Source: Fomitopsis serialis (Eukaryota; Basidiomycota; Agaricomycetes; Polyporales; Fomitopsidaceae). From it: a stretch of 64,000 nt of DNA. Of this stretch, positions 1 through 64,000 are shown piece by piece. A program made the position numbers and the translations under genes. The stretch is from positions 29,016-93,015 of the forward strand of contig NW_025955117.1 of the NCBI RefSeq assembly GCF_022376445.1. Direction: 5' to 3'. Within the stretch, counting starts at the first letter, position 1, and every line of letters begins with the position of its first letter. Under the pieces are notes generated by a model. The model made no database searches, was not told the origin of the DNA, and saw nothing but the letters and a program-made list of their open reading frames with translations.

Positions 1-1030
1 GTTGAGGTATTGAAGGTACGTCTGGCATCTATGTTGTGCCAGGACGATTGCCCGCAGATAACTCATCGACATTACCAGAGATACGCTAAGGAGGCGACGA
101 TCTGGAGGCGTCTAGCGCATCCGAATATTACACCCTTCTACGGAATCGATACTGAACACTTCAAGATTAGTATGGTATATAAATGGATGGCGCACGGCAT
201 ATCATCGAGTTTTTGGGCACAGTTCGAGAAGCCAGCCGCCCACATTTGGTGAATTATATCATACAACATTGATGCCGCTCTTCAACGCTGATTCTGTGTG
301 ATTGTGATTAGCTCCTGGATATCGCCGCGGACTTGGATATCTTCATTCAGATAGTGTTGGCATTGTCCATGGGACCTCAAAGGTGTAAGTATTACATAAT
401 ACTAGCATTACTATGCGCACTCATCAGAGAGAAGGCAAATATCCTTGTAGACGAGCACCACTGTGCTTGTCTTTCGGATTTCGGGGTCTCTACTATTATA
501 TACGAAACCTCTACCACACTCAATACGGTCACTCAGCCGTACAATTTCAAGTCCACGCTTCGCTATATGGCTCCGGAGATCCACGACCCTGAATGATTTC
601 TTGGGGAAGAAGTTGCGAAACCATCTAGAGAGAGCGACGTATACTCATACTCCTTGGTGATGTGGGAGGTACGTTGTAACATATCATCCTGCCATCTGAT
701 CGGCTTAATATAGAGCCAAGTAGATATTCACGGGAGAAATGCCGTACCAGAGCAGTTGGCACGACGGGGCCATTATAAACAAGATCGTCAATGGTGCACG
801 ACCTCAGCGTCCGCCCGATGCTACGCGTCTTGGGCTATCTGACACCATCTGGCGTATCATGGGGAAGTGCTGGAACGAAGTTCCTTCCACAAGACCATCC
901 ATACTGGAGGTGATCTACGACCTGGAACATGAGTGGAGCTCGTGGTTCCGTCGCGGGGTCTCACTGATGCAGAGAAGGAGGCGGTCGCGGGTGCGGTAGG
1001 TTCGACACAAACCCCTCACATGGAGGGTCT
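1..1030 (+). pseudogene. Decayed copy of the TKL-like kinase domain at 56941-57960
   Basis: This is a second copy of the kinase part of the composite gene at 56067-59222, entering the window at the end of its fourth exon. The same introns are recognisable: a donor after the LLK-type codons near 15, one ending before CTCCTGGAT near 312, and one after the GGGAG near 667. The kinase elements DFG (SDFGVST, about 475), YMAPE (about 570) and the C-lobe (739-940) are visible. It looks dead: CGA has become TGA at 594-596, directly after the HDPE residues, and there are small deletions near 198 (the HGHII segment) and 370 (the HGDL catalytic loop). Similarity to the intact copy fades between about 950 and 1030, and no Fungal_trans exon follows. 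Whether a Zn2Cys6 exon lies upstream cannot be seen because the window starts here. Confidence 0.8.
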
Positions 1031-14993: not shown

Positions 14994-15197
14994 CGATGGC
15001 ATGCGTCGATCGACGAATATCGGCACGGCACTCGTGAAGCACGGGCCAATTGTTGAAGTAATTCTACTCCTTTCTGAGGAATCATAGAAACTCCAACACG
15101 ACGTTTCCAAATAATGCACCGTTCGTCACGTCATTATGGTCGTCCTGGTAATACATGCAACGTTCGTGAAGACTTCAATGTCATTATACTACCTTCG
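14994..15197. other. Short intergenic gap
   Basis: Convergent 3' ends of remnant G and the P-type ATPase gene. Nothing else is seen. Confidence 0.4.
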
Positions 15198-19603
<4,406 letters not shown>

Positions 19604-42922: not shown

Positions 42923-43411
42923 GGAGCTCGAATGTAACGGACGAGGTGCAGAAACTGTGTAGTTCGATGCGAGGACTCGGAGGGGTTTGGAATCGGTCGC
43001 GGCTGCACAATCCTTTGCAATGCTCCCTCATCTGTCTAATCCAATACATCTGATCCGAGTGCTCAAACTAGACAGCCTCGCTGCAAATATTATAGGACGC
43101 AGGATCTGAGCCCTACAATCGGTTTGTGAGATTCTGCTCCGCAATGATCATGCAGACATTGAACATGGCACGATCGCAGCGGACGACCGACCGACTTATA
43201 GCGTCTGTCAACTTCGTAGTCAGGTTGTATCTTGTCAAATGTCTTCTGCTTTCGCCGCTCGAGTTCGTCAGTGAATCATGTATGTTAGCATGCTGTTGAT
43301 AGGTGTGTGCACCTGACAAGTGTTGAGCCAGAACGGTTAGCTGCAAACAGTCCACTGTCCGACGACCCGAGAAAGTTGTATTGAGAATCGCCACCGTCTG
43401 GACGACCTTGT
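42923..43411. other. Convergent intergenic region
   Basis: It lies between DUF4246 copy D (+) and the MCP1-like gene (-). This stretch is missing from the equivalent place behind copy E. No gene is seen. Confidence 0.4.
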
Positions 43412-44916
43412 CTATAACCGGTACAAAATAGATTTCGTGAACGCCGCGCGGAACCGTACAGCGGTCGAGCTCAGCACCATTAGTGGCTCCGACGAGATAA
43501 CCCATATGCCTGAAGCAACCGGGATGACGACGGCAGCCACCATGCCGGCCGTCCGCCCACACCACCCTTCCACCGACCCAACACGTCCCTCGCCCACGTA
43601 TTCCACAGCACCCTCACGCCCTCTGCCGCGTGCGTCGCGACGACGGCCGTGAGTGCGAAGTACCCAAGACCCGCGCGCCACGGCCACGCATGGAGCGCGT
43701 ACTTGACGTATTCGTAGTCGAGCTCTGCGGGCGAAAGCGCGAGAACGGGCGCCGCGGCGTCGGCGGGGTGCACGCGGTGCGTGAGGAAGTGGCCGAGGAC
43801 GAGCAGGCCAGCAGCGTACCCGGTGAGGCTGAGTGCGCTCGTGGGGCGGCGCGCGGGCCGGGGTGCGAGGAACCGCTTGGACAGGCTCGAGAGCGGGTGG
43901 ACGAGGAGCGGGAGGAGGACGAGGTATTTCTCGCCGAGGGGCGTTTGGTAGTATTCTCGGCCGAGGAGCTGCAGGAGGGTGTGGGTTAGCAGGCTGCTTG
44001 CAAAGTAGGTGTCATCATCAAAGGGTGTTATGTTGGATGCGACTCTGGGCCGTGGACATTTGTACAGTTCACAGCGTTGGCCCGAGTGCAGCCGGGCCGA
44101 AAGGTATCAGACATTGGACGGGTCACGATACTTGGCCGACGTCGCAGGATCAAGGAATCCGTGGAGAACCGACGCTAGGTGCGACCTCGACATAGCAATA
44201 CAAGCATGAATGATTGCTTGATAGCCCTGTAGAGCGTCGGAAGACGCACTAGACGAGGTCGATCTAACTTCAAAAGCAGACTGCGGTGGTGCATCTAATC
44301 AATTCAAACGAGCTGCCAATCGCATGGCCGTCACGACGGACCTGAAGCATTCAGCATTCCACCACAGCTGTCGTATCTCAAGGCACCGACTGAATCGATA
44401 ATTGAATATGATTCTAGTCTGTCGCTACCTGACAGGTCCCAGGCTGTCCGATGGCAGGAGCGTAGACCGCGCTACCGTCGCCTGTTGCTATCCAGCGTTG
44501 ACGATGCAGAGGCCCTAAGTGAGACGCATCGCGATAAGTAGGCCTTTACAACGTCGATTGTATGAGCACCCAGATTGTATTCAATGCTGATGCGGACGCG
44601 ATCGCTCGCCCCGCCAGAAACCTTCCATATCGTGACATTGCGACGGCGGGCATATGGTGCCTCGAGGGCCCATTTCAGGGAGCTCTCGCGCATTGAATGG
44701 ACCGCGTGTATTTAGCGTTTTGACACGTACCATCACCTGCGAGGACAGCGACGTGCCGCCCAGGCTCGCTAGGGCGGGCGCCGTCAGATGAATTAGCACA
44801 AAGGTGGTAATGAACGGAGTCGAGCCATGAGAGACCCGGGTGAGGACAGACAGAGCTGCACGGCGCCAAGTGGGAGGTGTTGAGGGCGAACCTGAGTCGT
44901 CGGGGAGAGCAGACAT
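43412..44916 (-). CDS. MCP1-like (DUF1691) membrane protein
   Basis: A multi-pass protein of the fungal MCP1 family. The yeast member is a mitochondrial outer-membrane protein linked to lipid homeostasis. Exon 1 (44916-44731, 62 codons, MSALPDDSGSPSTPPTW to LGGTSLSSQVM) ends at a GTACGT donor. Exon 2 begins at 43968 with LLGREYYQTPLGEKYLVLLP, then SLTGYAAGLLVLGHFLTHRV, HPADAAAPVLALSPAELDYE, AWPWRAGLGYFALTAVVATH and EGVRVLWNTW. The end (SGIWVISSEPLMVLSSTAVR to LYRL, 43412) is one frame away from about 43560, again consistent with a 1-nt indel. The single intron of 762 nt is about ten times longer than others here and contains sequence also present behind copy E. I am fairly, not fully, sure of the family name. 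Confidence 0.72.
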
Positions 44917-45589
44917 GAACGCGGTTGGTATGCGCGGGACCGGATACTGTATCAAGTTAGACTGTGCGTACCAATCCCGATCCCGATTAGGAACGGGACG
45001 AAGCCTTTGGTAAACAGCACCAATCACCTTCTGTGGCGTGAGACTCCGCATCTCCTTCACATGTGGCCTCGATCAGAGTTACGCGTTCGTCGCGATATGA
45101 GCTCAAGCTGTCGGAGAAGACCTTCGACACTGAAAATTCTCATTTGTTAGTATTGTGGACAGTTACATGCAGGCATCGCACCTAGCAGTGCATCCTTCAC
45201 GGCGTCCTTTGGGTGAGTCGAGTTTCTGATACCCATAGTCACTATAATGATGCACACTACACGGTACAGCATGATACACTCCACGGTCGTGGCACAAATT
45301 GTGCACCTAGGGACTCCGTATGACAGAACATAACTTCGATGGACAGGTCGGCAACGGCGCGAATGGCCGCATTCCTACCATGGTGTTTGGGCGAGATGAG
45401 TCGAGTCACAACGTACGTCTACTATGACACGATACTCAATTGCAGTACTACACCGTGTCCAGTCAGTACAGGCGTCCATCTTGGACCTCTTCTTGATATC
45501 CTGACTGTAAGGAGTTGACGAGGGCCGCTAAGTAACACTCCATGGGTGATTTTCAAGAAGCCGGCTCTGTCCACGCGTCAGTCTTCTCA
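44917..45589. other. Intergenic
   Basis: The upstream region of the MCP1-like gene. The open frame extending exon 1 to 45060 is probably 5' region. No gene is seen. Confidence 0.4.
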
Positions 45590-48195
45590 TCCAAAACGCG
45601 GTCATTCTGACTGCAGCACGGTCACCGCAATGATGCGGCGGTGCGCAGGCGATGCACGGTTATCGTGGCTGTCTCCAGACGAGCCGTACAGTTCTTGGAA
45701 CCGGAAGCCTGATTATCAGTGTTGCCGTGGGCGCAAATCTGGTGTACGTCTGCATTTCGGTACGTAATCTCGTGGCCAGTGCCAGTCGTGATGGGCTTAC
45801 ACTATGATACAATGATATATAGTCTCAGCGTGTCCGATGCTTGTGCTGAGCGTATTCCCCCTGTATCTGATCGCTTCCATCCTGCCTTGCTGTAGGTCTA
45901 CAAAGATCTTCTCATTCGTACAACCGCTTTGACCATGGCCTCAAGCGACAACGACGGACCCACTGCTAACCAGACGACCAAGCGATACATGCACCCGTTC
46001 ACAGAAAACCAGAGTGGGATTACTACACCATGGAGGACGATGACCCTACAGACAAGGACACGCCGCGTACGCTCATCGAGCTGCGCATGTGCGCCTGAGC
46101 GCGGCCATTCGCGAGAAGCCAGAATGGTGGGTGAAGTTCCGGGACGAGAACGTGCAGGCGAAGTGGAGAAACGAGATCAGGGAACAGCAGAAGGATCTGC
46201 GCCGCTGTCTGCAGCTCACGGACAACATGGTGCGTCTTACGGTTTACCGAGGTCGTTCAAGGAAGAAGGGGTGAAGACGATATCATAGATCAACTACATC
46301 ATGGGCGAGCTCGAAGCTTATGCTGCGCTTCGAGACCCAGAGACAGGCATCGAGGTCGGTCGACATAAACTCGCTATACAGTGTCCCCCTGCTCATGTCC
46401 GATTGGCAGGCTGGTCCCTATGAGCGGATCTGGCAGTCTGATGAGCTCATTCCCGCCTCCCTCAAAGCCGACCTCGTCTCAGCGATCGCCCCGCTCGAAT
46501 CCGTCCCTGACTCCGAGAAGGACTGGCATCCAGGATCCGACGGCAAAGTGCTCGATCTCGTGCACCCCTCGCTGTACCCTGTCGTCTACGGGCATACCAC
46601 AGCTCACGGTGCTCAGGAGCCCCTGCAGCCCCGCGCAACGGATATCATCCCTATGTATAGGTCAGAGCGGTTCCAATGGCTACCTTCGGACTTTCGTGTC
46701 GAGGAGGATGGCTCCGTCTGCTTGGTCTCGCCCTACATTAACAATATCCACCCGGAAGATCACGAGGCGCTCACAGCGATGATCCCGAAAATGTTGGAGA
46801 AGGCCGTGCCAATGTTCGAGAGGGTGCTCTCCGACCTCGCGAGGGAGACACAGCTCCCTACACGCCTGGACCTCCAGGGGCACAAGTTCCCGCAGTGTGT
46901 CTGGCCAGGCGGTCCGGAAGTCAGTTCCTTCTACTTCATCAACCTCGACCATGCCCGCTAACCCTCATTTAGACCGAGCACAACTATGAATGGGATTTCG
47001 ATGGTAGTTACTACGACGAGGCCGAGCGGCTTGTGAACGAGGACCGCAGACGGTGGGAAGCGGAGAAGGCCCAGTTCGTAGAGGAAGCGCACGCGGCATG
47101 GCTGGCCAATCGTTCCAGCGAGGACAGGCAGTGGCAGGAGCCACCGTTCCCGCCTTTTGTGCACGTCCCGTACTGTGATATGTGGCATGAAGAGTTTTTG
47201 GACAAAGCGCCAGTGGAGCACCGCTGGCCGGAGAGCAAGCCGAGCTATACGGATAGCCTGGACTGCGTGAAGAAGACGAAAGATCTGCGAGGGAGGACGC
47301 TGCAGGTGATCGTGAAGCTGGCGAATATTGTGCTAACGCCTGAGAAGCCTGAGTACGGAGGAGGCGCGTGGCACGTCGAGGGTAAGTCGGGTTGGCATGG
47401 CGTACCACATTCCCTGCTGATTCCTATGAAATACAGGGATGGACAACGAAGCGATCGTCTCCACGTTCATCTATGTGCGTGAGGATAGCTATAGCCCTGC
47501 GACATCCTGCATGTTGACTAACATCGCACCCAGTACTACGATGCAGAAAACCTCACCGAATCGACGCTGTCCTTCCGCAACGCCGTCAACGAGCCCCGCT
47601 ATCACGGCCAATGCGACTATTACTGCATGCGCGGTCTCTACGATATGTCAGCGTACGTCTTCCAGCCCGCCTCCCTCCACAGCCGGCTAACAAGCCCCTC
47701 TCCAGAGACCAGTTGTGCGCACAAAACGTCGGCTACGTCACCACCAAGCAGGACAGATGCATCGCGTTCCCGAACCTATACCAGCACCTCGTCTCGCCGT
47801 TCCGCCTCGCCGACCCCACGAAGCCGGGGCATCGCAAGATCCTCGTGTTCTTCCTCGTCGACCCGAACATCACCATCCCGTCCGCGTCGACGGTGGCTCC
47901 TCAGCAAGAGCGGAGGATCCGCCGCGCAGCGGAGGGGTCAGAACTGTGGTGGCGGCTTCCGAATGAGGTGCACGAGATGATCTGGGAGTGGTTGGACCCG
48001 ATTACGGAGACCCAGGCGAGGAAGTATCGGGAGGAGCTGATGAAGGAACGATCGCAGACCGAGAAGGCGTGGGGCAGGGACAGGTTCGCACTGTTCTTCA
48101 ACCTGTGGTGCGTGGGCTTCTATCTTCAGCGATATGGATGCGCCGCCCTTCTGACTTCGTTGTTGTGCTTGTCTTCAGTGAACACTGATGCGTGA
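45590..48195. repeat. Left arm of inverted DUF4246 pair (E/F)
   Basis: Reverse complement of 51935-54460 with moderate divergence. Besides the genes, the upstream blocks match: 45599-45670 (ending in GATGCACGGTTATCGTGG) pairs with 54381-54455. The match ends shortly after the terminal exon on the inner side. Confidence 0.75.
45935..48188 (+). CDS. DUF4246 family protein, copy E (best preserved)
   Basis: The cleanest copy. ATG 45935 (MASSDNDGPTANQTTKRY). Exon 1 has two 1-nt gaps against copy D (46012, CAGGAG read as CAGAG; 46094, GCCCTG read as GCCTG). The rest reads through: INYIMGELEAYAALRDPETG, GPYERIWQSDELIPASLKAD to QCVWPGGPE (46409-46920), an intron 46921-46973, TEHNYEWDFDGSYYDEAERL to GAWHVEG (47382), MDNEAIVSTFIY, YYDAENLTESTLSFRNAVNE, DQLCAQNVGYVTTKQDRCIA, FPNLYQHLVSPFRLADPTKP, GHRKILVFFLVDPN, RFALFFNL and the 10-nt exon ending CEH-stop (TGA 48186-48188). 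HxE in WHVEG plus the downstream His (YQHLVSPF) and basic residues (GHRK) suggest an Fe(II)-dependent oxygenase core (inference). Inverted partner of F. Confidence 0.85.
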
Positions 48196-48239
48196 GGTGT
48201 TTGCCGAGATGGTGGAGTCTGCAGCCTTGTCTGCAGCCG

Positions 48240-49115: not shown

Positions 49116-49705
49116 GAACACAGTTGGTACTACCTGTACTTACTTACCGTCAATGACCGATAGGAATGCTCGCGCGCGGGAAGCAGTCCGATATTCCCGG
49201 AATTGGGAAGATGATGGTGATCAAATGATGATAACTTGCACATTTCTAAAATAACCGCCACAAGCAAACAAGTCGTCCGGAAATCCTGTTGATGGTATAC
49301 ATTCGTAGTCTCTTGGGGAGGTGTTGTAGTATATGTCAGATGTTGAGGTACTGTGTGCAGTTGGTTGGTTGGGAGGACGAGGCCTCGGGGACCGCTCAAG
49401 CGCTCAACGGCTCAACGGGGGCACGTGCAGTCGCGGGGCCAACGCACAGTGGAACCGAAGAGTCGGCCCCTGCGACGTTCCGTCCGCTCGTCTGCGACCA
49501 TTCGCCAAGCTCGCCCGAGTCGCCGTCGGCGGACACGTCTCCCAGCTTCAGAACGTCGCATGCATAGATCTGGAAGGTCTGTGACGGGACAACGGGGGCT
49601 GCGCGAATGACTGGACATGTCCGCGGAATCCGTCGGACACAACTATATACTTGGTTTCCTCGCTTACTGCAGCTATTCATGGCCTGAACCTTGCGTCCTT
49701 CCTCC
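49116..49705. other. Intergenic / F-box gene promoter
   Basis: About 590 bases upstream of the F-box gene, with a possible TATA-like ACTATATACTT at 49639. No gene is seen. Confidence 0.4.
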
Positions 49706-51697
49706 ATGTCCCACTGCCACCGTGCCCTCCAGCACAACGACGTCCTGCATGAGGTCTTCACCTGGCTCACGCCCCCACTCCTCCGCGGCGACCTCTCGCC
49801 CGAGGAGGAAGAGATCAGACACAACGCGAGACATGACCTCACCAACATCGCCCGGGTGTGCAAGGCCTTCTCGGAGCACGCGCTCGATGCGCTCTGGAGG
49901 GAGCTCGACGACCTACTTCCCGTCATGCAACTCTTGACCGAGTCTCACGACTTTGACGGGGACGGCACAGCGGTGGGCGGACTTGCGGGGGGTCAGGACG
50001 TATCGGTGAGTAATCCCTTGGATCTCAGCACAAGTCCCACTCTCACACAGCACTTCGCCCAGCTTATCTCTGAGAACGAGTGGATGCGCTTCCGGCACTA
50101 TGCCAGAAGAGTTCGCGTCATCCGCTCGTCTGGCTTCGGGACGTTCGAAGCGTCCATGCTGCTGCACCTCGCTCGCCGCAACGCAGACAAGGCCCTCTTC
50201 CCGCGTCTGCGGTGTCTGACGCATACGGTCAGATCGAATCTCGACACCGGCCTGCTGTCGCTAGTGACACCGACGCTCGAGGAGGCCAAGCTCGAGTTCT
50301 GCGGCGAGACTTGGTACGGACTCGACACGGAAGAGTCGCCCGCCATCGCACGCAAGCTGCGGGACTATGCCGTACAGTTCTGTCTGAGTACGGTATGTTC
50401 GAATGCGCCAGAGCTCCAGCAGCTCACCATCACCGGCCTGGGTCGCATCTCTTCGCTTTCCCCGCTCGTTGCGTGCAATCGCCTCCGGCGACTGCACGTC
50501 CATGACGTCGTGCTTAGTCCGCGATCGCTCCGCACCCTGGTCTCCCTGGATAGTCTGCACGAGCTGGACATGTCCTTCGAGCGCACAAACTGCGACCCGT
50601 CTGGTGCTGGCTTGGCTAGCCTGCAGAGGCTATCGCTCTCCGGACCGATGTGCCAAATGCCCACCATCCTCGACACCGTGTCGTCCACCCACGTCCGTGC
50701 AGTGCGCATCTCGGACGCCTCCAACAAAGCGACCTACCAAGAATGCACAGAGTGCATCCAGGCCATCTCCAAGTTCCCCCTCCTCGACTCGTTCCACCTC
50801 GCCGCCGACAACGTGTCCGTCGACGACGACGTCCCCACTAGCGTCCCGCTCACCGGGCTGCTCGCACCGCTCCTCCCGCAACGTCGCCTGCGCACGCTCT
50901 CCGTGAGCCGCTGGCAGCCCGGCGGGTTCATACTCGGCGACGACGACGTCGAGACGCTCGCCTCCGCCTGGCCCGACATCGTCTCGCTCGCCCTCGCCGT
51001 AAACCGCGCCGATGTCGTCCCCACCCTGCACTCGCTCGTCGTCCTCGCGCGCGCGTGTCCGGCCCTCCGCGCACTCGAGCTCCCCTCGATCACGATCGCC
51101 TCCGCGGAGCAGCTCCGCCTTCCTGTCGTGCCGCACCGCCTGCGCACCTTCGAGGTCGGCGACCCCGACCGGCGCATGGAAGACTTCGACGCGGCGGAGG
51201 TCGCGCAATGGCTGTTCGCGCTCTTCCCGCGGATCAGCATGCCCGGGGAGAGCGAGGACTATCCCGAGTTTTTGGCGAGGCTGCTGGGCGAGCTGCAACG
51301 TTTGCGGCGCGAGGCCCCGCCGTCGACCGACTCGGCCCGGGGTCTGAGGCAGGGGAGGGAAGCGCTGCTTCCCTTGAGTCGTGCCAGTGACGCCGTGGCC
51401 TGGACTCGCGATCGTACTCTCGCGATCTCAGTACATTTGTGCTTCTGTCCGGGATGGACAGAGTGTAATCGGGGACGGAGGCGCTTGAGTGCTTTGAGCG
51501 CGTGCCTGTGGGTCCGCGGGCGAGTCCCCGTTTTGTGCCTCTCGTTCTGTGGCGGATGCGCGGCGCAGATCATGTTCTTGCCCGGACCTGGACGTGCGCA
51601 TTGGGCCACAGATACGCGAAAAGTGGCGGGCGCGCGGGATGCAGCGGAAAAGAGGTTCAATCTGCGCGGGGTCTCCTCCGACGTTTGGACGGCGTGA
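49706..51697 (+). CDS. F-box protein with leucine-rich region
   Basis: A single-exon gene of about 663 residues starting at ATG 49706 (MSHCHRALQHNDVLHEVFTW). The N-terminal F-box-like motif covers VLHEVFTWL to IARVCKAFSEHALDALW (residues 12-60), followed by WRELDDLLPVMQLL, the usual continuation in mushroom F-box proteins. The rest has irregular leucine-rich repeats (LQQLTITGLGRISSLSPL, LRRLHVHDVVLSPRSLRTLV, LRALELPSI). Such proteins are expected to serve as substrate receptors of SCF ubiquitin ligases; the target is unknown. The last about 120 residues (after 51340) are compositionally different and may be read-through. It sits between the inverted DUF4246 copies E and F. Confidence 0.8.
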   Translation: MSHCHRALQHNDVLHEVFTWLTPPLLRGDLSPEEEEIRHNARHDLTNIARVCKAFSEHALDALWRELDDLLPVMQLLTESHDFDGDGTAVGGLAGGQDVSVSNPLDLSTSPTLTQHFAQLISENEWMRFRHYARRVRVIRSSGFGTFEASMLLHLARRNADKALFPRLRCLTHTVRSNLDTGLLSLVTPTLEEAKLEFCGETWYGLDTEESPAIARKLRDYAVQFCLSTVCSNAPELQQLTITGLGRISSLSPLVACNRLRRLHVHDVVLSPRSLRTLVSLDSLHELDMSFERTNCDPSGAGLASLQRLSLSGPMCQMPTILDTVSSTHVRAVRISDASNKATYQECTECIQAISKFPLLDSFHLAADNVSVDDDVPTSVPLTGLLAPLLPQRRLRTLSVSRWQPGGFILGDDDVETLASAWPDIVSLALAVNRADVVPTLHSLVVLARACPALRALELPSITIASAEQLRLPVVPHRLRTFEVGDPDRRMEDFDAAEVAQWLFALFPRISMPGESEDYPEFLARLLGELQRLRREAPPSTDSARGLRQGREALLPLSRASDAVAWTRDRTLAISVHLCFCPGWTECNRGRRRLSALSACLWVRGRVPVLCLSFCGGCAAQIMFLPGPGRAHWATDTRKVAGARDAAEKRFNLRGVSSDVWTA

Positions 51698-51934
51698 TGA
51701 CCGCTCGGCGTTGGCAGGGCTGCTTTGGCTTCGTGGATTGCCCGAGAATGGTCGCGGCTCAATTGAGCGCAAGTCTTGCTGTTATTGGGAATACAGTTCG
51801 TCTTGTGTCGCCCCTGGAATCCTCCATGGACGATGGCGTTTGGCAGCGGCACCATGGCCTTGCATACACATGCGCCTCTTGTGGGCTCAGCACCATCTGA
51901 GTGCTAGTCAAATCTACACGTCTTGGCGGACACC
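51698..51934. other. Short intergenic gap
   Basis: Convergent 3' ends of the F-box gene and DUF4246 copy F. Nothing else is seen. Confidence 0.4.
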
Positions 51935-54460
51935 CCACGCATCAGTGTTCGCTAAAGGACAAGGGATGTCAGAAGGCCAATACATGCCACTGATGACAGA
52001 GGCCCACGCACCACAGGTTGAAGAACTGCCCGAACCTTGTTTTGTCGACCGCCCTCGCGGCCAGCGTTCGTTCGTTCGTCAGCTCCTCCCGATACTTCCT
52101 CGCCTGCCTTTCCGTAATCGGGTCCAGTAGCTCCCAGATCATCTTGTGTACTGCCTTCAGAAGCCTGCACCACAGCCAGCGGATCCACAGTTCCTGCTTA
52201 GGAGCCACTGTAGATGCGGACGGGATGGTGATCATGTTCGGGTCGACGAGGAAGAAGACTAGGATCTTGCGATGTCCCGGCTTCGTGGGAGGCGGAACGG
52301 CGAGACGACGTGCTGGTAGAGGTTCGGGAATGCGATGCATCGGTCTTGGTTGGTAGTGACGTTGCCGACGTTTTGCGCACACCTTTCGTTTCTTAGGAGG
52401 AGCTCGTCAGTTGGCTGTGGAGGGAGGTGGGCTGGAAGACGTACGCTGACATCCCGTAGAGGTGGCCCATGCAATAGTGTTCCCATTAGCCGTGATAGCG
52501 GGGCTCGCGGACGGCGTTGCGGAAGGACAGCGTTGATTCGGTGATGTTTTCTGTATCGTAGTACTGAGTGCAATGTTAGTCAACACACAGAATGCCGCAG
52601 GGCCGTAGATATCTTCGTGCACATAGGTGAACGTGGAGACGATAGCTTCGTTGTCCATCCCTGTTTTCGTATAGAAGGCTTCAGCAGCGAATGTGGTATA
52701 CCGAGCATGCCCGACTTACCCTCGACGTGCCACGTCCCCCTCCGCACTCAGGCATCTCAGGTGTCAGAACGATATTCACCAACTACACGATCACCTGCAG
52801 TGTCCTCCCTCGCAAGTCTACCGTCTTCACGCAATCGAGACCATCCGCATAGCTCGGCTTGCTCTCCGGCCAGCGGTGCTCCGCCGGTGCGTTGTCCCAA
52901 AACTCTTCGTGCTAACTGGTACGGAACGTGCACAAAAGGCGGGAACGGCGGCTCCTGTCACTGCTCATCCTGCGATTCGTCGCGTGTGCTGCCTCCAGAA
53001 CTTGAACTGAGCCTTCTCCGCTTCCCAGTGTCTGCGGTCCTCCGCCAAGGATTGCCGTGTATTCTAAAATAGCGTGAGTTTATCTCGGGGTCCATTGTGG
53101 GCTCAATCTAGATGAGCGTGAGCGGGCACAGTCGAGGATAATGAAGCAAAAGGAACTCACTTCCGGACCCAGACGCATTGCGGGAACTTGTGCCCCTGGA
53201 GGTCTAGCCGTGTGGGGAGCTGTGTCTCCCTCGCGAGGTCGGAGAGCATCCTCTCGAACATTTGCACGGCCTTCTCCAACACTTTCGGGATGATCGTTGT
53301 GAGCGCCTCATGATCTTCCGGGTGGATGCTGTTGACGTATGGCGAGACCAAGCGGACGGCGCCTCCTCGACATGAAACTCCGAAGGCAGCCATTGGAACC
53401 GCTCTGACCTGTACATAGGGATGATATCCGTTGCGCAGGGCTGGGGGGCTCCTGAGCGCCGCAAGCGGTGGTATGCTCGTAGACGATGGGGTACAGCGAG
53501 GGGTGCGCGAGATCGAGCGCTTTGCCGTCGGATCCTGGATGCCAGTCCTTCTCGGAGTCTGGGACAGACTCGAGCGGGGCGATTGCTGAGACGAGGTCTG
53601 CTTTGAGGGAGGCGGGAATGAGCTGATCAGACTTCCAAATCCGCTCATACGGACCAGCCTGTGAATGGAAATGAGAAAAGTGCATTGTATAATGGGATTA
53701 TGGGGCCGACCTCGGTGCCTGTCTCTGGGTCACGAAGGGCAGCATAGGCCTCGACCTCACTCATGATGTACTTGATCTATGACGCTCCCTTCACCCGTCC
53801 TCGCGCGAATGACCTCCGAAATCAGACGTACCATGTTGTCCGTGAGCTGTATACTGCGACACAGATCCTTCTGCAGTTCCTTGACATCATTCTCCACTTC
53901 GCCTGCACGTTCTCGTCCCAGAATTTCACCCACCACTCCGGCTTCTCGCGGATGGCTGCGCTCAGAGCAGCTCAATGAGCGTACGCGGCGAGTCCTTGTC
54001 TGTGGGGTCGTTGTCCTCTGCCATGGCGTAGACAACCCACTCTAGGTTTTCTGTGAACGGGTGCATGTATCACCTGGGTGTGCTCAGCTGGTTAGCAGGG
54101 TCCGTTGCTGTCACTTGAGGGCGGGATTGAGGCGGTGTATGGAATGGAGAAATCCTGTGTGGACCTACGGCAAGGCAGCATGCAAGCGATCAAAGGCGGA
54201 AGGCGAAACACTGAGCACAAGCATCGAACACGCTGAGGATATATAAGTTAAGCCCCAGGCCTGGCACTGGCTGGCACGAGATCACGTACCGAACTGCAAA
54301 CTGCAGACCTATATACACCAGATTTTCGCCCACGGTAGCAATGATTATCAGGCTTCCGTTTGCAGGAAGTGTATGGCGAAATCCACGATAACCGTGCATC
54401 GCCGGCGGCGCACCGTGACCGCCGCATGATTGCGGTGCAGTCAGGATGACTGTGGTTCAA
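51935..54460. repeat. Right arm of inverted DUF4246 pair (E/F)
   Basis: Inverted partner of 45590-48195, covering copy F and about 340 bases upstream of its former start. Confidence 0.75.
51942..54123 (-). pseudogene. DUF4246 family copy F (start codon lost)
   Basis: Inverted sister of copy E. All blocks are present: MHPFTENLEWVVYAMAEDND (from about 54066), SDQLIPASLKADLVSAIAPL, DWHPGSDGKALDLAHPSLYP, FQWLPSEFHVEE, LPTRLDLQGHKFPQCVW, the HVEG region near 52716, MDNEAIVSTFTY, QDRCIAFPNLYQH, PGHRKILVFFLVDPN, KTRFGQFFNL and the 10-nt last exon (TGA at 51942-51944). Where copy E has ATGGCCTCAAGCGAC, F reads CCCGCCCTCAAGTGAC, so the start codon is gone by substitution and a TGA follows. Further stops and indels lie in exon 1 and near 52910 and 53360. 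Unlike the other copies, this one is broken by more than homopolymer gaps. A later ATG at about 54066 could in principle start a shorter protein. Confidence 0.7.
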
Positions 54461-55164
54461 CTGTGGTTGGAAGATAAGACATTCGCGTAGGCAAAGCCAC
54501 ACATGCACTGGTGTCGCGACTGTTAACGTACGCTTTATGAGGGTGTATGGTTCTCATCATCTCCTATCGTTACTTACACTGCATGAAGAAAGGGTAGACG
54601 TTTGTACTGACGTACGAGACACGGTGTTGTCTTGCAATCGAATATCAGCCATAGTGCACGTCGTGATTCGTCGTTGTAGTGATTAGGTTCGACCCATCTC
54701 ATCTACACGACGCTATATCAATGCTACATCCAACCGTTCAGCCGGGTACCGTGGCAGGGATGCGGCAAGTCGTGCTACCATTGAGCGGCCCATCGTACTC
54801 TACTATGTTCTGTCAGGACGGAGTGCATTCAAGTGAGTCCCGGGGTGGACTGTTTGCGTCACGATCGCGCAGTGTACTGTCATTATAGCGACTATATAAT
54901 AGTATGGGTATCAGAAGCTGTATTCACCCAATCCACGCCGTTGGAAATGCAATACCTGATGTGATGTCTGTATGTGACTGCTTCTAATGTGGGGTAGAAT
55001 TCTGGGACAAAGGTCTTTTTCGTGCTTGAGCTCATTTGATTGGGTCCTCGGCCATGTTTGAGGGGTAACTCGGGGTTGGCACACGCGGCGGCGACGGAGC
55101 ATGTAGGTAAGTAACTTGATTGGCGCTGTTTGCCAAAGGCTTCGTCCCTTAGCGCCTGAGTATA
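54461..55164. other. Intergenic
   Basis: No gene recognised. A minus frame at 55203-54892 overlaps the small inverted-repeat element and has no domain. Confidence 0.4.
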
Positions 55165-55417: not shown

Positions 55418-56066
55418 TAGTTCCTGATCGGGCAATGATCGAGATCGAGACTGGCAACCGTTAAGGACGGCGGCCCGTCCGCTCTGCGTCCGCTACCGTG
55501 ACTTTCCTCCACTCCAAGTACTTAGGGACATGCTTATGTTCCTCTGAGTCTGTGCCAGAATAGGTGCTGGCGTTTCCCACCAGCCTCATGCCCTCAGCCG
55601 TGACTGGGTCACAGGATTGGGAGGGATGATGGGTTCTCGCAATCATCGCGATGCTGGCTGGGGATAGTCCGCGGGGTGCGTGCTTGCGTGGAAGCTCAGC
55701 AGAGTACTACAGGTCATGCACGGCGGCTTTGGTCAGGTTTACATATGGAACCGCCCAGCCGTCCGAGACGCGCAGCTCTTCCTTTCCATTCAAGTTCACC
55801 CTGCTTCACCCCCTCTTATCTCGTCTGGACGAGCTGCCCTGCCTTGGGTCGCCTCCGACGAGAGCTAGTGTGTCCACTGCATCCGGCCGTCAACCTCACC
55901 ATCCTACATCGCTCCTGCCTATTCGACCATCCAGCTGCGCGGGCGCCGTGCAACAGGCGAACCATCAGAAGCTGTCCAGCTTGTGGACTGTCCAAGACTA
56001 CCCCTCATACTTATCGGTCCCGGCGCGAGGTCCTCTTCTCTATATCAACACATCCTCGCCAACGCC
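55418..56066. promoter_or_regulatory. Promoter/5' region of the composite TF-kinase gene
   Basis: From about 55618 this sequence is shared with 62938-63363 upstream of the second Zn2Cys6 start (for example the GATGCTGGCTGGGGA block at 55650 and GATGTTGGCTGGGGA at 62972, and CTCGCCAACGCCATGTC at both starts). The promoter was thus copied along with the gene start. Confidence 0.55.
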
Positions 56067-56330
56067 ATGTCGGGCTACGGCCATGGGAGCCCACAACAGA
56101 ACGGCGGCCGTAGGATGTTCAGCTGCAAGCCCTGCCGCATGCTCAAGATCAAATGCGATAGGTGCGTCGTTACGCCAGATTTTCTTCGCCGCCCTCACTC
56201 ATCGAGTCATCGCTTTGCAGGAAGCAGCCCTGCACGCCGTGTCAGGTGGCATGTTCGTCAATCTTGCCTGCTGATGTTTCATATTGAAGCTGACGACACG
56301 TCGGACCATTTGCAGATACAGCGAAATATT
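55618..56330. repeat. Segmental duplication, copy 1 (with 62938-63650)
   Basis: The 5' region and first exons of the composite gene are repeated in direct orientation at 62938-63650, with intron 1 and intron 2 in the same positions (the GAAGCTGACGACACG block before exon 3 is shared). Confidence 0.75.
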
Positions 56331-59222
56331 GCCTATACAAGGGTGACAAGGGATATGACGGCGACGGCGTCGATCCGCCTAAGCGATCACTTCAAGATTA
56401 TGCACGCAGCGAAGCATGCCAGAACCTCGTTCAGTCACTAGTGAAGGCTGATGCGTCCCTTGCGGAATTCGGCGCTACGACTGGTGAGATACAGGGCACC
56501 TTGAAGGTCCTACAGGCGGCGATGTCTACGGAGCAAGGTATCCGGGCCGTGAAAAACTGCGCAGAGGGTCATCACGAAATGATTGTGAATCTCCTGGATG
56601 CGGTGAGTGACTCTTAAGGTGTCTCTGTGCAATTCACAAATATCCTATAAATTTACGCCGCTTGTGATCCACACAGGTATTGGAACGAGTTTCTCCCCAG
56701 TCCCGCCAATACACCACGGTATTCCATGCACTTCGCAAATTGTGTGCACAGCATGGCCACGTCCCGGATTCATTGATCCTGCCAAGGGGTTCGGTTGTTC
56801 TGAGTCCGTCGACGTTTGACGAGACAGGCAGACCCGAGCCACATGCAAGTGGTGGGTTTGCAGACATCTACATGGGACAGTGGAAGGGGCAGGTTGTCGG
56901 GATCAAGGCTATGAAAACTTCCAGCCGTGACTCCGTTCAGTTATTGAAGGTACGTCTGGTGTCTATGTTGTGCCAGGACGACTGCCCTCAGACAACTCAT
57001 CGTCATTCCCAGAGAATTGCCAAGGAGGCGACGATCTGGAGGCGTCTTGCACATCCGAATATCACACCCTTTTATGGAGTCGATACTGAACACTTCAAGG
57101 TCAGTATGGTATGTAAATGGATGTCGCACGGGCATATCATCGACTTTTTGGGCGAATATCCAGAAGAGAGCCGCCCGCGTTTGGTGAATTTTATCTACAA
57201 CCCCAATATTTACCGCTCTGCATCGCTGATTATGTCATGTGATTGTGATCAGCTCCTGGATGTTGCCCGTGGACTCGCATACCTTCATTCAGACAGTGTT
57301 GGCATTATCCATGGAGACCTCAAAGGTGTACGTATTATATCATATCAGCATATGTGCACTCATCAGAGAGAAGGCAAACATCCTGATAGACGAGCACAAC
57401 TCTGCTTGTCTTACGGATTTTGGGGTCTCTACTATCGTATACGAAACCTCTACTACACTCAATACGGTCACTCAGCCATGCGACTTCCACTCCACGCTTC
57501 GCTATATGGCTCCGGAGATCCACGACCCCGAACGATTTCTTGGGGAAGAAGTTGCGAAACCATCTAGAGAGAGCGATGTATACACATACTCCATGGTGAT
57601 GTGGGAGGTACGTTGTAACATATCATGCTACCATCTGGTCGGTTTAATATAGAGCCAAGTAGATATTCACGGGAGAAATGCCGTACCAGAGCAGTTGGCA
57701 CGACGGGGCCATTATAAACAAGATCGTCAATGGTGCACGACCTCAGCGTCCGCCCGACGCTGCGCGTCTTGGGCTATCTGACACCATCTGGTGTATCATG
57801 GGGAAGTGCTGGAACGGAGTTCCTTCCACAAGACCATCCATACTGGAGGTGATCTCCGACTTGGAACATGAGTGGAGCTCGTGGTTCCGCTCACACAGAC
57901 CCACGGATGCAGAGAAGGAGGCGGGGGCAGCAACTACCGGGTCTCAGGCGATGCAAAACACGTCTGGTATGTTCTTGGGCCCTACCAGCAATGTGTTCGC
58001 CGTGAACCAGGTATGTCATGAGGTCTCTGTGGTCTGCAGTTTGCTTAGGGTATCTCTACTTGCTGTAGTTCGTCGGCGGGCGACCTTCACAGGGCCTTCC
58101 GGGCTTTTTGTCGAACCATGTCCCCGTTCTCGACGTGCGTCACCATGACGCAGATATTGTCGCCCAGCTCCCGGACCACAACACCGTGGAGTACCTCATC
58201 AACCATTATTTCGAATGCTGCAACTGGATCTACCGCTTCGTCCATGAACCAACCATTCGCGATGCGTGGTGGCGGTTCAGAAACGGCCAGTCTATGACCC
58301 GCGTCGAGCTCGCCACTGTTTGTGTCGTTATCGCCATCGCTATCCAATATCTCCCTCTGAGTCGTCACAAACTCTTCTCCGCCCTCCGCGGCAGTGCAAT
58401 CGAATTGGGAAACACTTGCTTTAAGTTGTCCCGCGATCTTCTCGAGCGTCACCGCGAGATCACGCCGACACACACGCTCGAGTTTGTCGAGCTCCTTTTG
58501 GCGCAGACCACTATCTCATTGTCTTCGAGACGCGCCTTGAGGAGGTCTGCATTATGTGCGGCGAGCTGCTCACTATCGCTACCGCTATGGGCCTGCACTG
58601 CGATCCTCAGAACGTCTTGCCGGTCGAGCTGGCTGAACGTCGCCGCTGGGCGTGGTGGAACCTTATACTCATCGAGCGCTGGCAGGCCTTCTGTCTTGGC
58701 CGGCTTAACCACAACGGCTCTGATCACTTTGACGTCCAGCTGCCTGCGGAGAATCCGAACCCCTTCGGCTCGGACAGGCTCTTTCTGCCGCACTTCGCCC
58801 TCTTCAAGCTCATGCACATCTCCGCAGCGACCTTGGACGAGGCGACGGCGAAACTCCAGGTCACCTGGTCGGTCCTGCAGCAGAAGGATAAGCTGTTGAC
58901 TGACTGGTTCGCCGAGCTCCCTCATGAAATGCTCCAGGAAGGTCAAGAATTGATCGACGGCCTCGCCAGCCTACACCCAGTTGTTCGCCGTCCCGCTGTC
59001 CAGGGCACGATCTTGCGCTTCATGTACAACTCCCTCCGCTTCACGCTCCACCGTCCCTGGATCCTCTTGCCGACGAGCTTGGATGTCGCGAGACAATGCG
59101 CATCGGAGCTGCTCCGTTTGATGGCGAAGGTGAAGGCCTCGCACACGCCGGCCCACTTCATGTGTGGCCCCTTCCAAACGGAAGTGGCCGCAACGTTTCT
59201 CTCCCAGCGAAGTTCATCATAA
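56067..59222 (+). CDS. Composite protein: Zn2Cys6 DNA-binding domain - protein kinase - Fungal_trans domain
   Basis: Nine exons join in phase: 56067-56161, 56221-56252, 56316-56602, 56677-56949, 57013-57183, 57253-57327, 57374-57607, 57663-58010 and 58069 to the end. Residues 20-48 form a Zn2Cys6 cluster (Cys 20, 23, 30, 36, 39, 48; C-x2-C-x6-C-x5-C-x2-C-x8-C). Residues about 60-185 are mostly helical. A TKL-like kinase follows (about 190-455): GGFADIYMGQWKGQVVGIKA, EATIWRRLAHPNITPFYGVD, HGDLKGANILID (HGD, D308), TDFGVST (D326), YMAPEIHDPE and a C-lobe with GKCWNGVPSTRPSILEV. From residue about 525 comes a fungal transcription-factor middle domain (HVPVLDVRHHDADIVAQLPD, MGLHCDP, ERRRWAWWNLILIERWQAF, LRFTLHRPW). 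One base is missing near 58510 (GCAGGACC read as GCAGACC). It probably couples kinase activity to transcription (inference). Alternative: two genes with cryptic starts; the in-phase junctions argue against this. Confidence 0.75.
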
Positions 59223-60131
59223 GATGTCAGCCGACTTGAACGTAACATCCATTGGCTGCTATTTCGGCGCGCGTCCGCGCCTACTGTGGCTATGGCGGGT
59301 CATAGCTTGCGCTGTCGCTGTCGCTGGGATCTACAGTGGCTCTGGGAGCCTACTATATTGGCTATGTAGCCGCGAGTGGATGCAATGGCCCCGGAATACT
59401 TTTTCTGACTCTGCCATCTGGGACAACAATGTAAGATATAACTCATCGCAGTCACTCATTGTATGTACACATCACTAGGAGATACAACACGAGACACTAT
59501 CGCTCCGCTCCTGTGGAACAACGGATTCATGAGAGTCGGAGAGTAGACTCATTCGTGCCAGTGGTCATGTCGCTTGCAGTAGACCATCTCAAGATGCGGC
59601 TTTCATGGTATGCGACAGAAAATCACCGTGTCTGATTCGCAGGACGACTCCAGTCACTGGTGCTTGCTTGGGTGTCAGTGACATCCGTTGAACCCAAAGG
59701 TACGAGAAATCCCGCATAGCAGCGGAGTATATGTTCCTATCGAACGCAGTCTCGGCGAAGATGGCATTTAGGAGAGCATCGCCGCATCGAGCACGTCTTG
59801 GCTCACTCCGGCTCAAGAGCCATGAATGGAGAATATTACTTCCGAGTCAAGTTGGCGAGTTCTTCCTAAGTAGGTTCGGAACAGTCCTTGCTCGAGATCT
59901 GACTCATGCGCCACACGCCACCGTGACAGCAGGTACTCACTCGAATGCGTCGCTCGTCGCGTCTTCTTTTGCCAGAACGGATGCAGACTGAAGTACTGAC
60001 TAGCGACTGCTGGAAAACATAGCCCCATCAGCCTCATGACCTCTTCAGATTAACGCGTTAACGGCGGCCGGCGCGATCCCCCCATTTACGCTCTGCGAGC
60101 TAAGTTGCCAAGCCAGGCCAACCAGGCATTA
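59223..60131. other. Intergenic; possible 3' exons of the composite gene
   Basis: Related Fungal_trans proteins often continue past the GPFQ segment. Here the frame ends at 59222 and I could not find a convincing continuation. No other gene is seen. Confidence 0.35.
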
Positions 60132-62217
60132 ATGGATGCGACGGACTCGGGGACACCGTTTGGACCGCTGTTGCTCACAGTCCATGATGTGAGTGCACGT
60201 TCGTATTACTACATAGTCCTCTCTACTTCCATGCAAAGCTAGACAGGGGTGTTGCAGCTAACGCGCTGACGGCAGGCTATTTTTGAAGTCGTGCTGGTCT
60301 GTTCAGCTGGGTACATCCTGGCGCGAAAGGGCATCTTAGACAAACCAACACAAGGTCGGTCACTCCAGTGTCACTCTGACAAAGACCGATTTCGACGGCA
60401 GGCGCTGACGACCATATGCTTGCCAGCAAATCAATCGTGTCAACGTATCATTCTTCACGCCGGCGCTGTTGCTCTCCAAAGCAGTGTTCTTCCTCTCACC
60501 AAGTGAGCGCGGTACCTCGCAGACACAAGTGTGTTCTTCCAATACTCATCCTTTGACTACCGGCGAAACTGCGCGAGCTATGAATTATATCCATTTTATT
60601 CGCCCTAACGACCGTCGCTTCGATAACTTTCGCACAGTTCTTGGGATGGTTGCTCAGAGAAATCCAGAGGTACGTCCACTTGGCTCTACATCGCCGCTCA
60701 TATCCCGAATGACTGACGGTTTCTATCTGCAATCCTTACATTTGATGCATGTGGCGTACAATTGACATCCTGCTTGTCATGGTGCCACAGGGCCTTCGCA
60801 ACGGCCGCAGGAATGTTCATGAATTCAAACACGCTGCCCATAGCCCTCATGCAAAGCCTGGTGATTACCGTCCCAGAGATTTGAAGTGGGGCGCGGGCGA
60901 TAGTGGCGAGGAGATGCTTGGCCGGGCGCTGACATATGTACCTCGACCTCCATCCGGGGCTTGGGATGATGGTATGTAATCTCCGTCCGCGCAGAAGCCG
61001 TGTTTCCTGTGCTGAGAGCCACGATTCTCTCGCAGGTCCGTTGGAGTTACGGGGTACGTCTTCTGTCCAAAGCGGATCCCGAAGTCGCCGGAGAAACTTC
61101 GTCGGAGCCTGTCCACAAGCCGGTCGCGGAGCCTGTGGAAACGGTCTACTCAGACTCTGCTGAGCCGCCGCCAGAAGGCGGCTCGGATGACACGCCGGTG
61201 GCCATAACCAATGACAGAGGCAGGACAGACTTCTTCCTCAAACTATGTGCCCCTGCAACGTTGACGAGCCCAATGCGTCACCCCGCGACGAGGAGTCCGA
61301 CGACAATGCAGCCAATCTCCCGCTCGCCCGGCGCCTACGTCTTCGATATGGCAGTCGCACCGTCGACGCTTGGGCAATCGTCTTCGCGAACTGTGGAAGG
61401 TCTTCTGTGAACGCATGAAGATGCCATTTTGGGCAGCGCTGGCCGCCCTCGTGTTCGCGTGTATCTCCCCGCTCCAGCGGACACTCGCACATATTGAGTG
61501 CATCCGAGGCGCGCTGGACATGGCGGGCGATTGCTCGATCCCACTGACGCTCGTCGTGCAGGGCGCGTACTTTTACACGCCAGCCACCGTGGCGGTGACG
61601 GGCACGCGCGCCTGCCTGTTTGCAAGCCAGCGCCAACGCGCCTCGCGGGCTCAAATTCAGCGCGCACTTCCAGGACCCGGTCCTCTCGGAATTTCTTTTG
61701 ATAAGGACTTACGGGGACGAAGGCGCTCTAGAGGAGAGACGGGGAACGGGGAACGACGGCCGGGAGGGAGCAAGATAGTCGGCATCGCGGTGCTGTCGCG
61801 ATGGATCCTCGCGCCGGCCGTGCTGCTGCCGCTGTTCATGTAGGCGACGAAGGAGAACTGGCAGCCGGTCTTCGAAGAGTGAGTGTGGCTCGAGCTTATC
61901 TTATTATGGACGTTCGCCGCTAACCGCCGCCTTCTTCATAACCATCGTCCCACTTCTGTGGCCCCTGCCTGCTTCGCGCGATGCCCGCCGTGCGCTTCTT
62001 TATTCGCCGTGCCGTGCCGGTCCCCCTCCCAGCCCGGTCGTCGTCGTGCACCACGTCCTGCTGCTCACTTCGCCGTCCGCGCAGATAACGCAGACTGCCT
62101 CGGGTGGACGCGTTCGAGCGCCTGCTGAGCCGAACGGTGTTCTGGAGTTACTGCGTCGTGACGCCCTCAAGCATGATCGCGGTTGTGGTCGTAGGTTTGT
62201 TATTGACGAAGCTCTGA
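60132..62217 (+). CDS. Auxin efflux carrier family (PIN-like) membrane transporter
   Basis: A membrane transporter of the Mem_trans/auxin-efflux-carrier family, common in fungi with unknown substrate. Pieces in order: MDATDSGTPFGPLLLTVHD (60132), intron 60189-60276, AIFEVVLVCSAGYILARKGI, QINRVNVSFFTPALLLSKAV (60427), KLRELWIISILF, MFMNSNTLPIALMQSLV (60814), DLKWGAGDSGEEMLGRALTY, VRWSYGVRLLSKADPEVAGE (61036), an acidic cytosolic loop with a TDFFLK end, FWAALAALVFACISPLQRTL (61430), SIPLTLVVQGAYFY, and the C-terminal FERLLSRTVFWSYCVVTPSS to VVVVGLLLTKL (TGA 62215-62217). The frame must be shifted several times (60578 GG read as G, 60884, 60935, 61400, 61650-61900). Some are probably consensus errors, but the number leaves open that the gene is decayed. 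Confidence 0.7.
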
Positions 62218-62937
62218 TGCAGACGGGCCGCGACCTACACTTCAGTCCCATAGAGCCCCATGGCACCTCGCTGTCACAGCTGTGCCTTCCGCCAGGGCTG
62301 ATGCTACGCAAAGGACGTGCATCGTGCCGCCGGGTGCATTGACATGGGAGATCCGCGTCTGGCGTTGGTGCCTCAGGCCTCATCGACATCGGTGAATCCC
62401 TGATGTGACCTCAAGAGTTGGATGCCCCCGCCATTGTTGTTGTGTGATCCGAATGAGGATCGGGTGAGCGAGACTCGTCTGGACTGTCGAGCGTGCTTTC
62501 TACGGCTCTGTGGATGTGTGGTGAGAGTTCGAACTGTGGTACGATGGGTGCGGTTATGGCTGGTGTTGTCAGTAATACTTCTGGGAGACTTGTAAATGAG
62601 AGTTGTCCACACCCGCGGTCATTTGCAGGCGATGCTGGTGTGGCCAGCTTCGAACTTGCACACATACAATGCCGGACTGGCAAGCGGCGGCAGCTGCAAC
62701 GTGTGTCACTCGCGGAAGCCCGTAAGCGCCGTAAGCGCACCACGCGTTGCTCAGGCTTGCCACACCGATCAAGCGCCCGACTTAAGGCTTACGATGCACA
62801 ATAGAGTTCGGCTGGAATGGCAATAACCCGGCCTCCTCCCTGCCCGGCCGTGCAGCGGAGGTGCGGCCGGTCGTTGAGGGTGCGGTATGAGTGGCTGCGG
62901 CAGGCGGCGGAGGCATATCGAGGCAGGGGTACTGTAA
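62218..62937. other. Intergenic
   Basis: 3' flank of the carrier gene. Short open frames without domains; no gene supported. Confidence 0.4.
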
Positions 62938-63650
62938 CGGGATCGGGAGGATAAAGAGTTCTTGCAATCGCGATGTTGGCTGGGGACCGTCCGCGGGGAG
63001 CGTGCTTGGGTGCGCGGAAGCTTAATATAGTAGTCTAGGGAGGCTTTAGTCGGGCTTACAAATATACTATTAATCCCCAGTCGGCCCAGGCGCGCAGCTC
63101 TCTCACTTCCTCCCATCTCGTGTGGCGTCGTCCCCTACGAGAGCTGCCTCTGCCTCGAGTCACCTCACCTCGAGCTAGTGTGGCCACCGCATCCGGCCAT
63201 TAACCTCGCCAGCGTACACCGCTCCTGCGTCTTCACCCACTAAGCTGTGCAGGCGCTGTGCAACAGGCGGACTAGAAGCCGCCCACTGTCTGTGACACCC
63301 CTCGTACTTCTCGGTCCCGGCGCGAAGTCCTCTTCTCTTTACCACTACATCCTCGCCAACGCCATGTCTGACGACGGCAACGGGAACTCACTACAGAACG
63401 GCGGCAGCAAGGCGGCCCAGCGCGCCCGTAGGGTGCTGAACTGCGGGCCCTGCCGCAAGAACAAGCTCAAGTGCGATAGGTGTGTCGCTGCGTCAGCTTC
63501 TCTTCGCCGCCCTCGCTTACCGATCCTCGCTCTGCAGGAAGCGACCCTGCTCGTCGTGTCAACTGCGAAGTTCGTCGTTCTCGCTCGCTGATGTCATGTT
63601 GAAGCTGACGACACGTGTCGAACCATTTGCAGAGCGAGACCGCTTGCCGC
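62938..63650. repeat. Segmental duplication, copy 2 (with 55618-56330)
   Basis: Second, diverged copy of the promoter and first exons of the composite gene, in direct orientation about 7.3 kb downstream. Confidence 0.75.
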
Positions 63651-63761
63651 TACGAGGACGAAGGGTATGCGGCACGGCCAGTGGCGTTTCGTTGGACCTC
63701 AGGAGAGACCATGGATGTCTACGAGCCTGAACCGCCAGCGATCCTGAGTCGACCGGGCTGA
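63364..63761 (+). CDS. Zn2Cys6 protein, partial second copy of the composite gene start
   Basis: ATG 63364 (MSDDGNGNSLQNGGSKAAQR) starts a paralog of the composite gene's DNA-binding part. Exon 1 (63364-63479) encodes LNCGPCRKNKLKCD, intron 63480-63537, exon 2 RKRPCSSCQ, and after a further intron SETACRYEDEGYAARPVAF, which gives the sixth cysteine. The third junction is off by two bases compared with the paralog, so splicing or sequence is disturbed there. The frame then runs 45 residues without a kinase-type helical segment and stops at 63759-63761. Either it is a truncated gene or it continues past the window through another intron. Expected role, if expressed: DNA binding in the nucleus. 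Confidence 0.6.
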
Positions 63762-64000
63762 TAACGTGCCCGTCGAGCAATCGTGCCTAATTGGTGCGTT
63801 GTACTGATGCAAAGTAAGCACCGCATGCGATTCTGTCGTCCTGTCAGCTCATGTTGTTGCAGCATGAACACCGATCTATCAACGAGTCGCACAGGTTCGC
63901 ACCAGCTGGAGGCGTTGGAGGCCAACTGAACAGGCATCAAGGCGCTTCTCATCCAGCGGTGGCTTCGCTGCGCGCAGCTACCCAGGAAAACCATCCGACA
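63762..64000. other. Window end, nothing assigned
   Basis: The last 239 bases hold no recognisable exon. Further exons of the Zn2Cys6 gene could begin here. Confidence 0.3.

Follow-up and report, generated by a model that had tools for sequence, protein, structure and literature searches.

In Zn2Cys6 regulators of fungi the zinc cluster is usually followed by a linker with a dimerising coiled coil. The members closest to the locus described here form a Zn2Cys6/Fungal_trans family comprising P0012 of Rhodofomes roseus, P0014 of Daedalea quercina and P0007 of Fomitopsis serialis. Its closest kinase relatives are F-box-like plus kinase proteins from related polypores, namely P0004 (Daedalea quercina), P0002 (from a metagenome) and P0005 (F. 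serialis); the F-box-like match in the N-terminal half of P0002 and P0004 is weak (16.4 and 13.0 bits, under the 24.3 cut-off). A fungi-specific kinase lineage, FslK, is expanded in Agaricomycetes, and the passages of its description consulted here give only 16 of 241 members as having additional domains (PMC3937382); a zinc cluster may be among those 16. A DNA-binding-type domain and a kinase are likewise joined in one chain in Arabidopsis WRKY19/MEKK4 (WRKY-TNL-MAPKKK); its domains, as given in the excerpts used, are unrelated and in another order, with a plant immune receptor in the middle, which makes the likeness an analogy only (PMC3782705).

The window analyzed here is a stretch of 64,000 nucleotides, C65:29016-93015, from the 66 Mb, 806-contig assembly of F. 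serialis; its right edge is the contig end. It contains a gene of nine predicted exons, beginning at 56067, in which a zinc cluster, a kinase and a Fungal_trans region follow one another (the fusion gene), together with parts of two related genes, A and C. A second contig, C57, carries the 3' half of the fusion gene, all of gene C, and the kinase genes K1 and K2. The features of the window are as follows.

1..984, + strand: 3' part of gene A, a decayed second zinc-plus-kinase copy (C65 about 28.1-30.0 kb, beginning before the window)
55608..56066, + strand: upstream region common to the fusion gene and gene C, a parental-type promoter and 5' leader (alignment of 55608-56368 to C57:5766-6517, 71%)
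56067..56161, + strand: exon 1, with the start codon, Cys20, Cys23 and Cys30; intron position as in gene C
56221..56252, + strand: exon 2, with Cys36 and Cys39; intron position as in gene C
56316..56602, + strand: exon 3, with Cys48, join 1 and the stretch preceding the kinase; frame open throughout
56368..56384, + strand: join 1, regulator to kinase fragment; the gene C match ends at 56368 and the K1 match begins at 56384
56677..56949, + strand: exon 4, with the glycine loop and Lys215
57013..57183, + strand: exon 5, with Glu234 and the remainder of the N-lobe
57253..57327, + strand: exon 6, with the catalytic loop and Asp308 (HGD)
57374..57607, + strand: exon 7, with Asn313, Asp326 (DFG), Glu359 (APE) and Asp379
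57663..58010, + strand: exon 8, with the end of the kinase (Arg446), join 2 and the start of the regulator part; an open frame, present also on C57 and in P0001
57902..57943, + strand: join 2, kinase fragment to regulator; the K1 match ends at 57902 and that of gene A at 57924, and the gene C match begins at 57943
58069..58899, + strand: exon 9 as it stands in the window, with the Fungal_trans region read in frame as far as about 58506 and a tail out of frame thereafter; stop 58897-58899
58507..59222, + strand: rest of the Fungal_trans region, in frame +3; stop 59220-59222; open frame on C57
63364..64000, + strand: 5' part of gene C, a kinase-less sister regulator, cut by the contig end (full stretch C57:6198-8977)

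A first-pass annotation of this DNA had proposed that nine exons join in phase. When the model was rebuilt, all introns between 56161 and 58069 had GT-AG borders and the phases joined, and the coding lengths quoted earlier proved correct: 414 nt for exons 1-3 (95+32+287), then 273, 171, 75, 234 and 348 nt. A single mRNA is predicted from splicing of all nine exons. The last exon had also been described as open to 59222, which is not so in the window, since 58069-59222 is 1154 nt, no multiple of three. The window copy loses its frame at 58507 and stops after 781 residues in all.

Contig C57 starts inside the fusion gene. Its first 1569 bases are identical to window positions 57654-59222, with zero substitutions, apart from two one-base length differences at 57671 and 58507, and on C57 the 3' half of the gene is in open frame up to the stop. 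The NCBI protein annotated there, P0001, begins at fusion residue 395, near the start of C57, and contains both the +1 stretch (146 residues) and the +3 stretch (236 residues) of the window, each identical. With the C57 frame the chain would comprise about 889 residues, by arithmetic. Contig ends in this region look error-prone, because window positions 63500-63999, compared with C57, lack 20 bases but show a single substitution; sequencing error is therefore a likelier cause of the 58507 break than a broken allele. Past the overlap, window positions 59284-63999 differ from C57 (positions 1-6854 compared) by many substitutions and indels, following the substitution-free stretch of 57654-59222; this shift in divergence at 59284 may reflect gene conversion, shared reads or some other cause. 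In a search for a haplotype lacking the fusion, queries with the fusion gene, window positions 15000-25000 and C57 positions 2200-10000 returned no further allelic contig beyond C65 and C57. Opposite window positions 59797-59964, C57 (L021 2146-2794) is longer by about 480 bases. Part of this is a 200-base repeat that is listed at 31 other places; many of these form pairs spaced about 4.7 kb, the pattern expected for LTRs of a retroelement.

The spliced protein was scanned against Pfam (cut-offs: Zn_clus 21, PK_Tyr_Ser-Thr 23.1, Fungal_trans 23 bits). The 651 residues before the break matched Zn_clus at 24.0 bits and PK_Tyr_Ser-Thr at 141.8 bits, the latter over profile positions 9-258 of 258; Fungal_trans was not among the matches listed for this piece. 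The proposed three-domain chain thus stands for the zinc cluster and a complete kinase, but its Fungal_trans domain is split by the frame break in the window, where only the +3 piece exceeds the cut-off (24.6 bits). In P0001 this domain scores 43 bits over profile positions 1-187 of 262, the same extent as in P0007, P0012 and P0014; the kinase tail of P0001, at 14.0 bits, is under the kinase cut-off. All six cysteines of the cluster are present, in the order Cys20-X2-Cys23-X6-Cys30-X5-Cys36-X2-Cys39-X8-Cys48, and zinc and DNA binding are predicted for it. The kinase carries the expected catalytic residues (Lys215, Glu234, Asp308, Asn313, Asp326, Glu359, Asp379 and Arg446) and is of the non-RD type, since Asp308 sits in HGD. 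It can be aligned with solved kinases, among which a reconstructed Src-Abl ancestor gives the highest score (110.9 bits). As in FslK, so far as the consulted passages describe that lineage (PMC3937382), this is an Agaricomycete kinase with G-x-R-P in subdomain X (here GARP), no AARN and the catalytic residues kept, all judged by eye; the likeness is one of motifs (complete core, P in GxR(P), no AARN). As sequence, the anatomy of the fusion gene is solid, and it is not a chance arrangement: every segment has near relatives that follow in matching order, and join 1 is seen again at a second locus.

The two ends of the fusion gene correspond to gene C, a tandem Zn2Cys6/Fungal_trans regulator that lacks a kinase and whose product is P0007. 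Besides the upstream and zinc-cluster region (55608-56368, 71%), positions 57943-59220 match gene C at 84%, and introns 1, 2 and 58011-58068 lie at the same positions in both genes. With the P0007, P0012 and P0014 family the fusion protein thus shares the six-cysteine cluster, intron positions, upstream region and the front of Fungal_trans. It differs from that family in having a kinase in place of the linker. Gene C carries about 370 bases between its matching parts, among them an intron and a run that by eye resembles a coiled coil. These are missing from the fusion gene, and in the alignment to gene C no counterpart of the linker was found. The fusion protein also falls about 265 residues short of the family at the C-terminus: P0014 has 841 residues, the match to it ends near residue 571, and P0001 ends within five residues of that point. 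Gene C itself shows a departure of frame from P0012 and P0014 near its C-terminus (L021 about 8150-8200), which may equally be a sequencing error or a real change; P0007, the NCBI model, ends in an unrelated tail.

The middle of the fusion gene comes from a different source. Positions 56384-57902 match K1, which encodes P0005, at 63%, with five introns at identical positions. K1 lies on the reverse strand of C57 at 39.2-41.6 kb and its neighbour K2 at 45.0-47.3 kb, which places these kinase genes about 40 kb downstream of the fusion gene. Both K1 and K2 also match the N-terminal half of P0004, which the fusion gene lacks; the K1 match starts only at 56384, within a K1 exon. In a kinase tree of 31 rows, the fusion kinase grouped with P0002, P0004 and P0005 at 100/100. 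Compared with these free relatives, it belongs to their clade but has lost their N-terminal half and gained a zinc cluster and Fungal_trans.

Retention of the introns, together with absence of the kinase genes' own N-terminal half, points to a genomic fragment of a kinase gene, about 1.5 kb of which likely took the place of about 0.4 kb of regulator. The earlier suggestion of a kinase fused within a regulator is borne out insofar as a piece of a kinase gene is there, but that piece replaced the linker and did not simply interrupt the regulator. The likely origin, well supported by these comparisons, would be a tandem duplication of the regulator followed by capture, in place of the linker, of a fragment of a neighbouring kinase gene. 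A contig of 729224 bases is listed alike for the nearest Daedalea quercina regulator, P0014, and for the nearest free kinase of that species, P0004, so the parent genes may be old neighbours. Because both parent types, the fusion and a decayed copy are still found close together, join 1 is located to about 16 bases and join 2 to about 41.

Both joins fall inside single uninterrupted open exons, join 1 in exon 3 and join 2 in exon 8. This bears on the possibility that the region is a row of two or three independently transcribed genes: what is left of a zinc-finger gene, then a kinase gene, then the tail of a regulator. None of the annotated proteins found in protein searches, not even from the F. 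serialis assembly, spans join 1, and P0001 begins within the kinase, although its contig begins there as well. Against these points, the N-terminal half found in the free relatives is missing from the kinase fragment, and P0001 continues through join 2 from kinase to regulator, so that we regard separate genes as very unlikely. An artefact of assembly, in which unrelated reads were stitched together, might be suspected from the position of the gene near a contig end and the imperfect overlap of the two contigs; however, join 2 is present on both contigs and join 1 recurs in the diverged gene A, 57 kb away on the same contig, and this reading is scarcely credible. Neither a split gene nor an artefact can serve as the main reading, given that open exons contain both joins and that each join is seen again, either at another locus or on another contig; both are much less likely than the two alternatives considered below.

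Gene A matches the fusion gene across join 1 and up to 57924, at 82-85%. Its zinc part is disrupted and the coding part of its kinase contains one stop and six one-base losses. Sequence comparison found no similarity to the regulator tail (Fungal_trans) after gene A, which may represent either an earlier stage, with zinc cluster and kinase only, or a copy that has lost its tail. An upstream neighbour of DUF4246 type (Pfam match from a related copy) is common to gene A and the fusion gene, at 79%, and a block of at least two genes was therefore copied. About a dozen bases past the end of the match between gene A and the fusion gene (57924, near join 2) begins a 50-base stretch, L019 6011-6061 (window 996-1046), that has three further occurrences in the genome.

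The state of gene A raises the question of whether the fusion gene is a real but decaying chimera, the outcome of local rearrangement, which is turning into a pseudogene as gene A did and has no selected function as a whole. Rates of change in the two halves speak on both sides. The regulator half, compared with gene C over 404 codons, gives dN 0.134, dS 0.332 and a ratio of 0.405; by 60-codon block the ratios are 0.20, 0.13, 0.46, 0.23, 0.60, 0.60 and 0.62 (the last block of 44 codons). Where P0012 and P0014 agree, over 401 ungapped sites, 74 changes are private to the fusion gene versus 3 to gene C, which indicates that the regulator half is fast-evolving in the fusion, its front least so. 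The zinc cluster departs from that of gene C at 14 of its 29 residues, yet none of the six cysteines is changed (chance about 0.01); dN/dS there is 1.37 on 29 codons. For the kinase part, dN/dS between the fusion gene and gene A is 0.34 on 407 of 423 codons, a value that mixes two histories because the comparison is pairwise with a decayed copy. At sites where P0002, P0004 and P0005 agree, 3 are changed in the fusion alone, 8 in gene A alone and 25 in both, and the fusion branch in the kinase tree (0.33) is of ordinary length beside those of P0005 (0.48), P0004 (0.26) and P0002 (0.21).

The broken copy A, the excess of private changes in the regulator half, the loss of frame in the window copy and the high ratio in the zinc cluster are all what decay would produce. 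Set against this, the window keeps an open frame between 56067 and 58506, C57 does so across the 3' half, and all six cysteines of the cluster are retained along with the catalytic residues. Under simulated drift, a regulator half free of stops has P 0.006 when every change is placed on this branch, 0.042 when 60% are and 0.067 when half are, which speaks against pure drift in a suggestive, not a strong, manner. On balance we think a decaying chimera somewhat improbable, though it is the foremost of the alternatives.

We give about even confidence to the reading that the zinc-kinase-Fungal_trans frame was made by a kinase fragment replacing the middle of a duplicated regulator, and that its product is a kinase carried to the regulator's DNA sites. 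From sequence alone we infer how such a protein might work. As the upstream region resembles that of gene C, the fusion gene is likely to be expressed similarly to gene C. The zinc cluster and the conserved front of Fungal_trans, whose first 120 codons with ratios of 0.20 and 0.13 count in favour of this reading, would form a targeting or partner-binding end. The kinase would then probably be the working end, brought to the DNA sites or partners of the parent, since the regulator's linker and C-terminal tail are gone while the kinase residues and an ordinary branch length have been kept; kinase activity and promoter targeting are accordingly predictions for this protein. A role as a classical activator is unlikely, given the missing linker and C-terminal residues. 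Only tentatively do we go further and suggest a zinc-cluster regulator whose own kinase phosphorylates the transcription machinery or co-regulators at the parent's promoters, built by capture of a kinase fragment in one lineage. Counted against the main reading are the lack of join 1 in any annotated protein that the searches found, the window frame break at 58507, the fast regulator half with its later blocks near 0.6, the decay of gene A, the ratio of 1.37 in the zinc cluster, and absence of the coiled-coil-like linker usual in DNA-binding dimers.

Loss of both linker and C-terminal regulator residues would also suit a brake on the parent, in which the product competes with that of gene C for partners or for sites on DNA, with kinase activity playing a secondary part or lacking altogether. 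Such a competitor would make use of the retained cysteines and conserved Fungal_trans front, under an upstream region similar to that of gene C. Its kinase nevertheless retains the standard catalytic residues, on a branch of unremarkable length, and with nearly half of the zinc-cluster residues unlike those of gene C it is doubtful that sites are shared; we judge a brake on the parent to be unlikely. If the fusion protein is made and active as in the main reading, a fungal regulator would unite DNA targeting and phosphorylation covalently. Even if the protein has no function, the locus records the assembly of a three-domain gene, with both parent types, the fusion and a decayed copy close by, and the fate of each half of the fusion can be measured here.

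The first-pass annotation knew of no other example of this domain order, and none emerged from our protein searches. A search with the 651 residues, limited to candidates within set protein lengths, gave 521 matches; among the 120 listed, the precomputed Pfam column shows Zn_clus in 2 and Fungal_trans in 6, and neither occurs together with a kinase domain in any. P0001, a fragment of the fusion itself, is listed with Fungal_trans only. None of 25 matches to P0014 (query included) has a kinase Pfam domain, and the zinc-plus-kinase front (359 residues, region 1-240) found one match among 576 candidates, the free kinase P0005. Among papers listed from one open-licence full-text library, judged by titles and abstract openings, none was recognisable as dealing with a Zn2Cys6-kinase protein. 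The order zinc cluster-kinase-Fungal_trans thus appears to be unseen elsewhere among the matches listed, the component families themselves being known. Related Agaricomycete kinases among these matches carry many unrelated extra Pfam domains, septin, G-alpha and WD40 among them; they may be either true fusions or merged gene models.

The surroundings of the fusion gene and gene A contain several direct and inverted copies of the DUF4246-type gene, at window positions 6283-14102, 40692-48211 and 51864-54803 and at L019 111-3124. Most pairs are 68-85% alike, with inverted arms up to 98%; the Pfam assignment was made on two pieces of one copy. A long open frame on the + strand, at window positions 49688-51697, gives a weak F-box-like match of 22.4 bits, short of the 24.3 cut-off.
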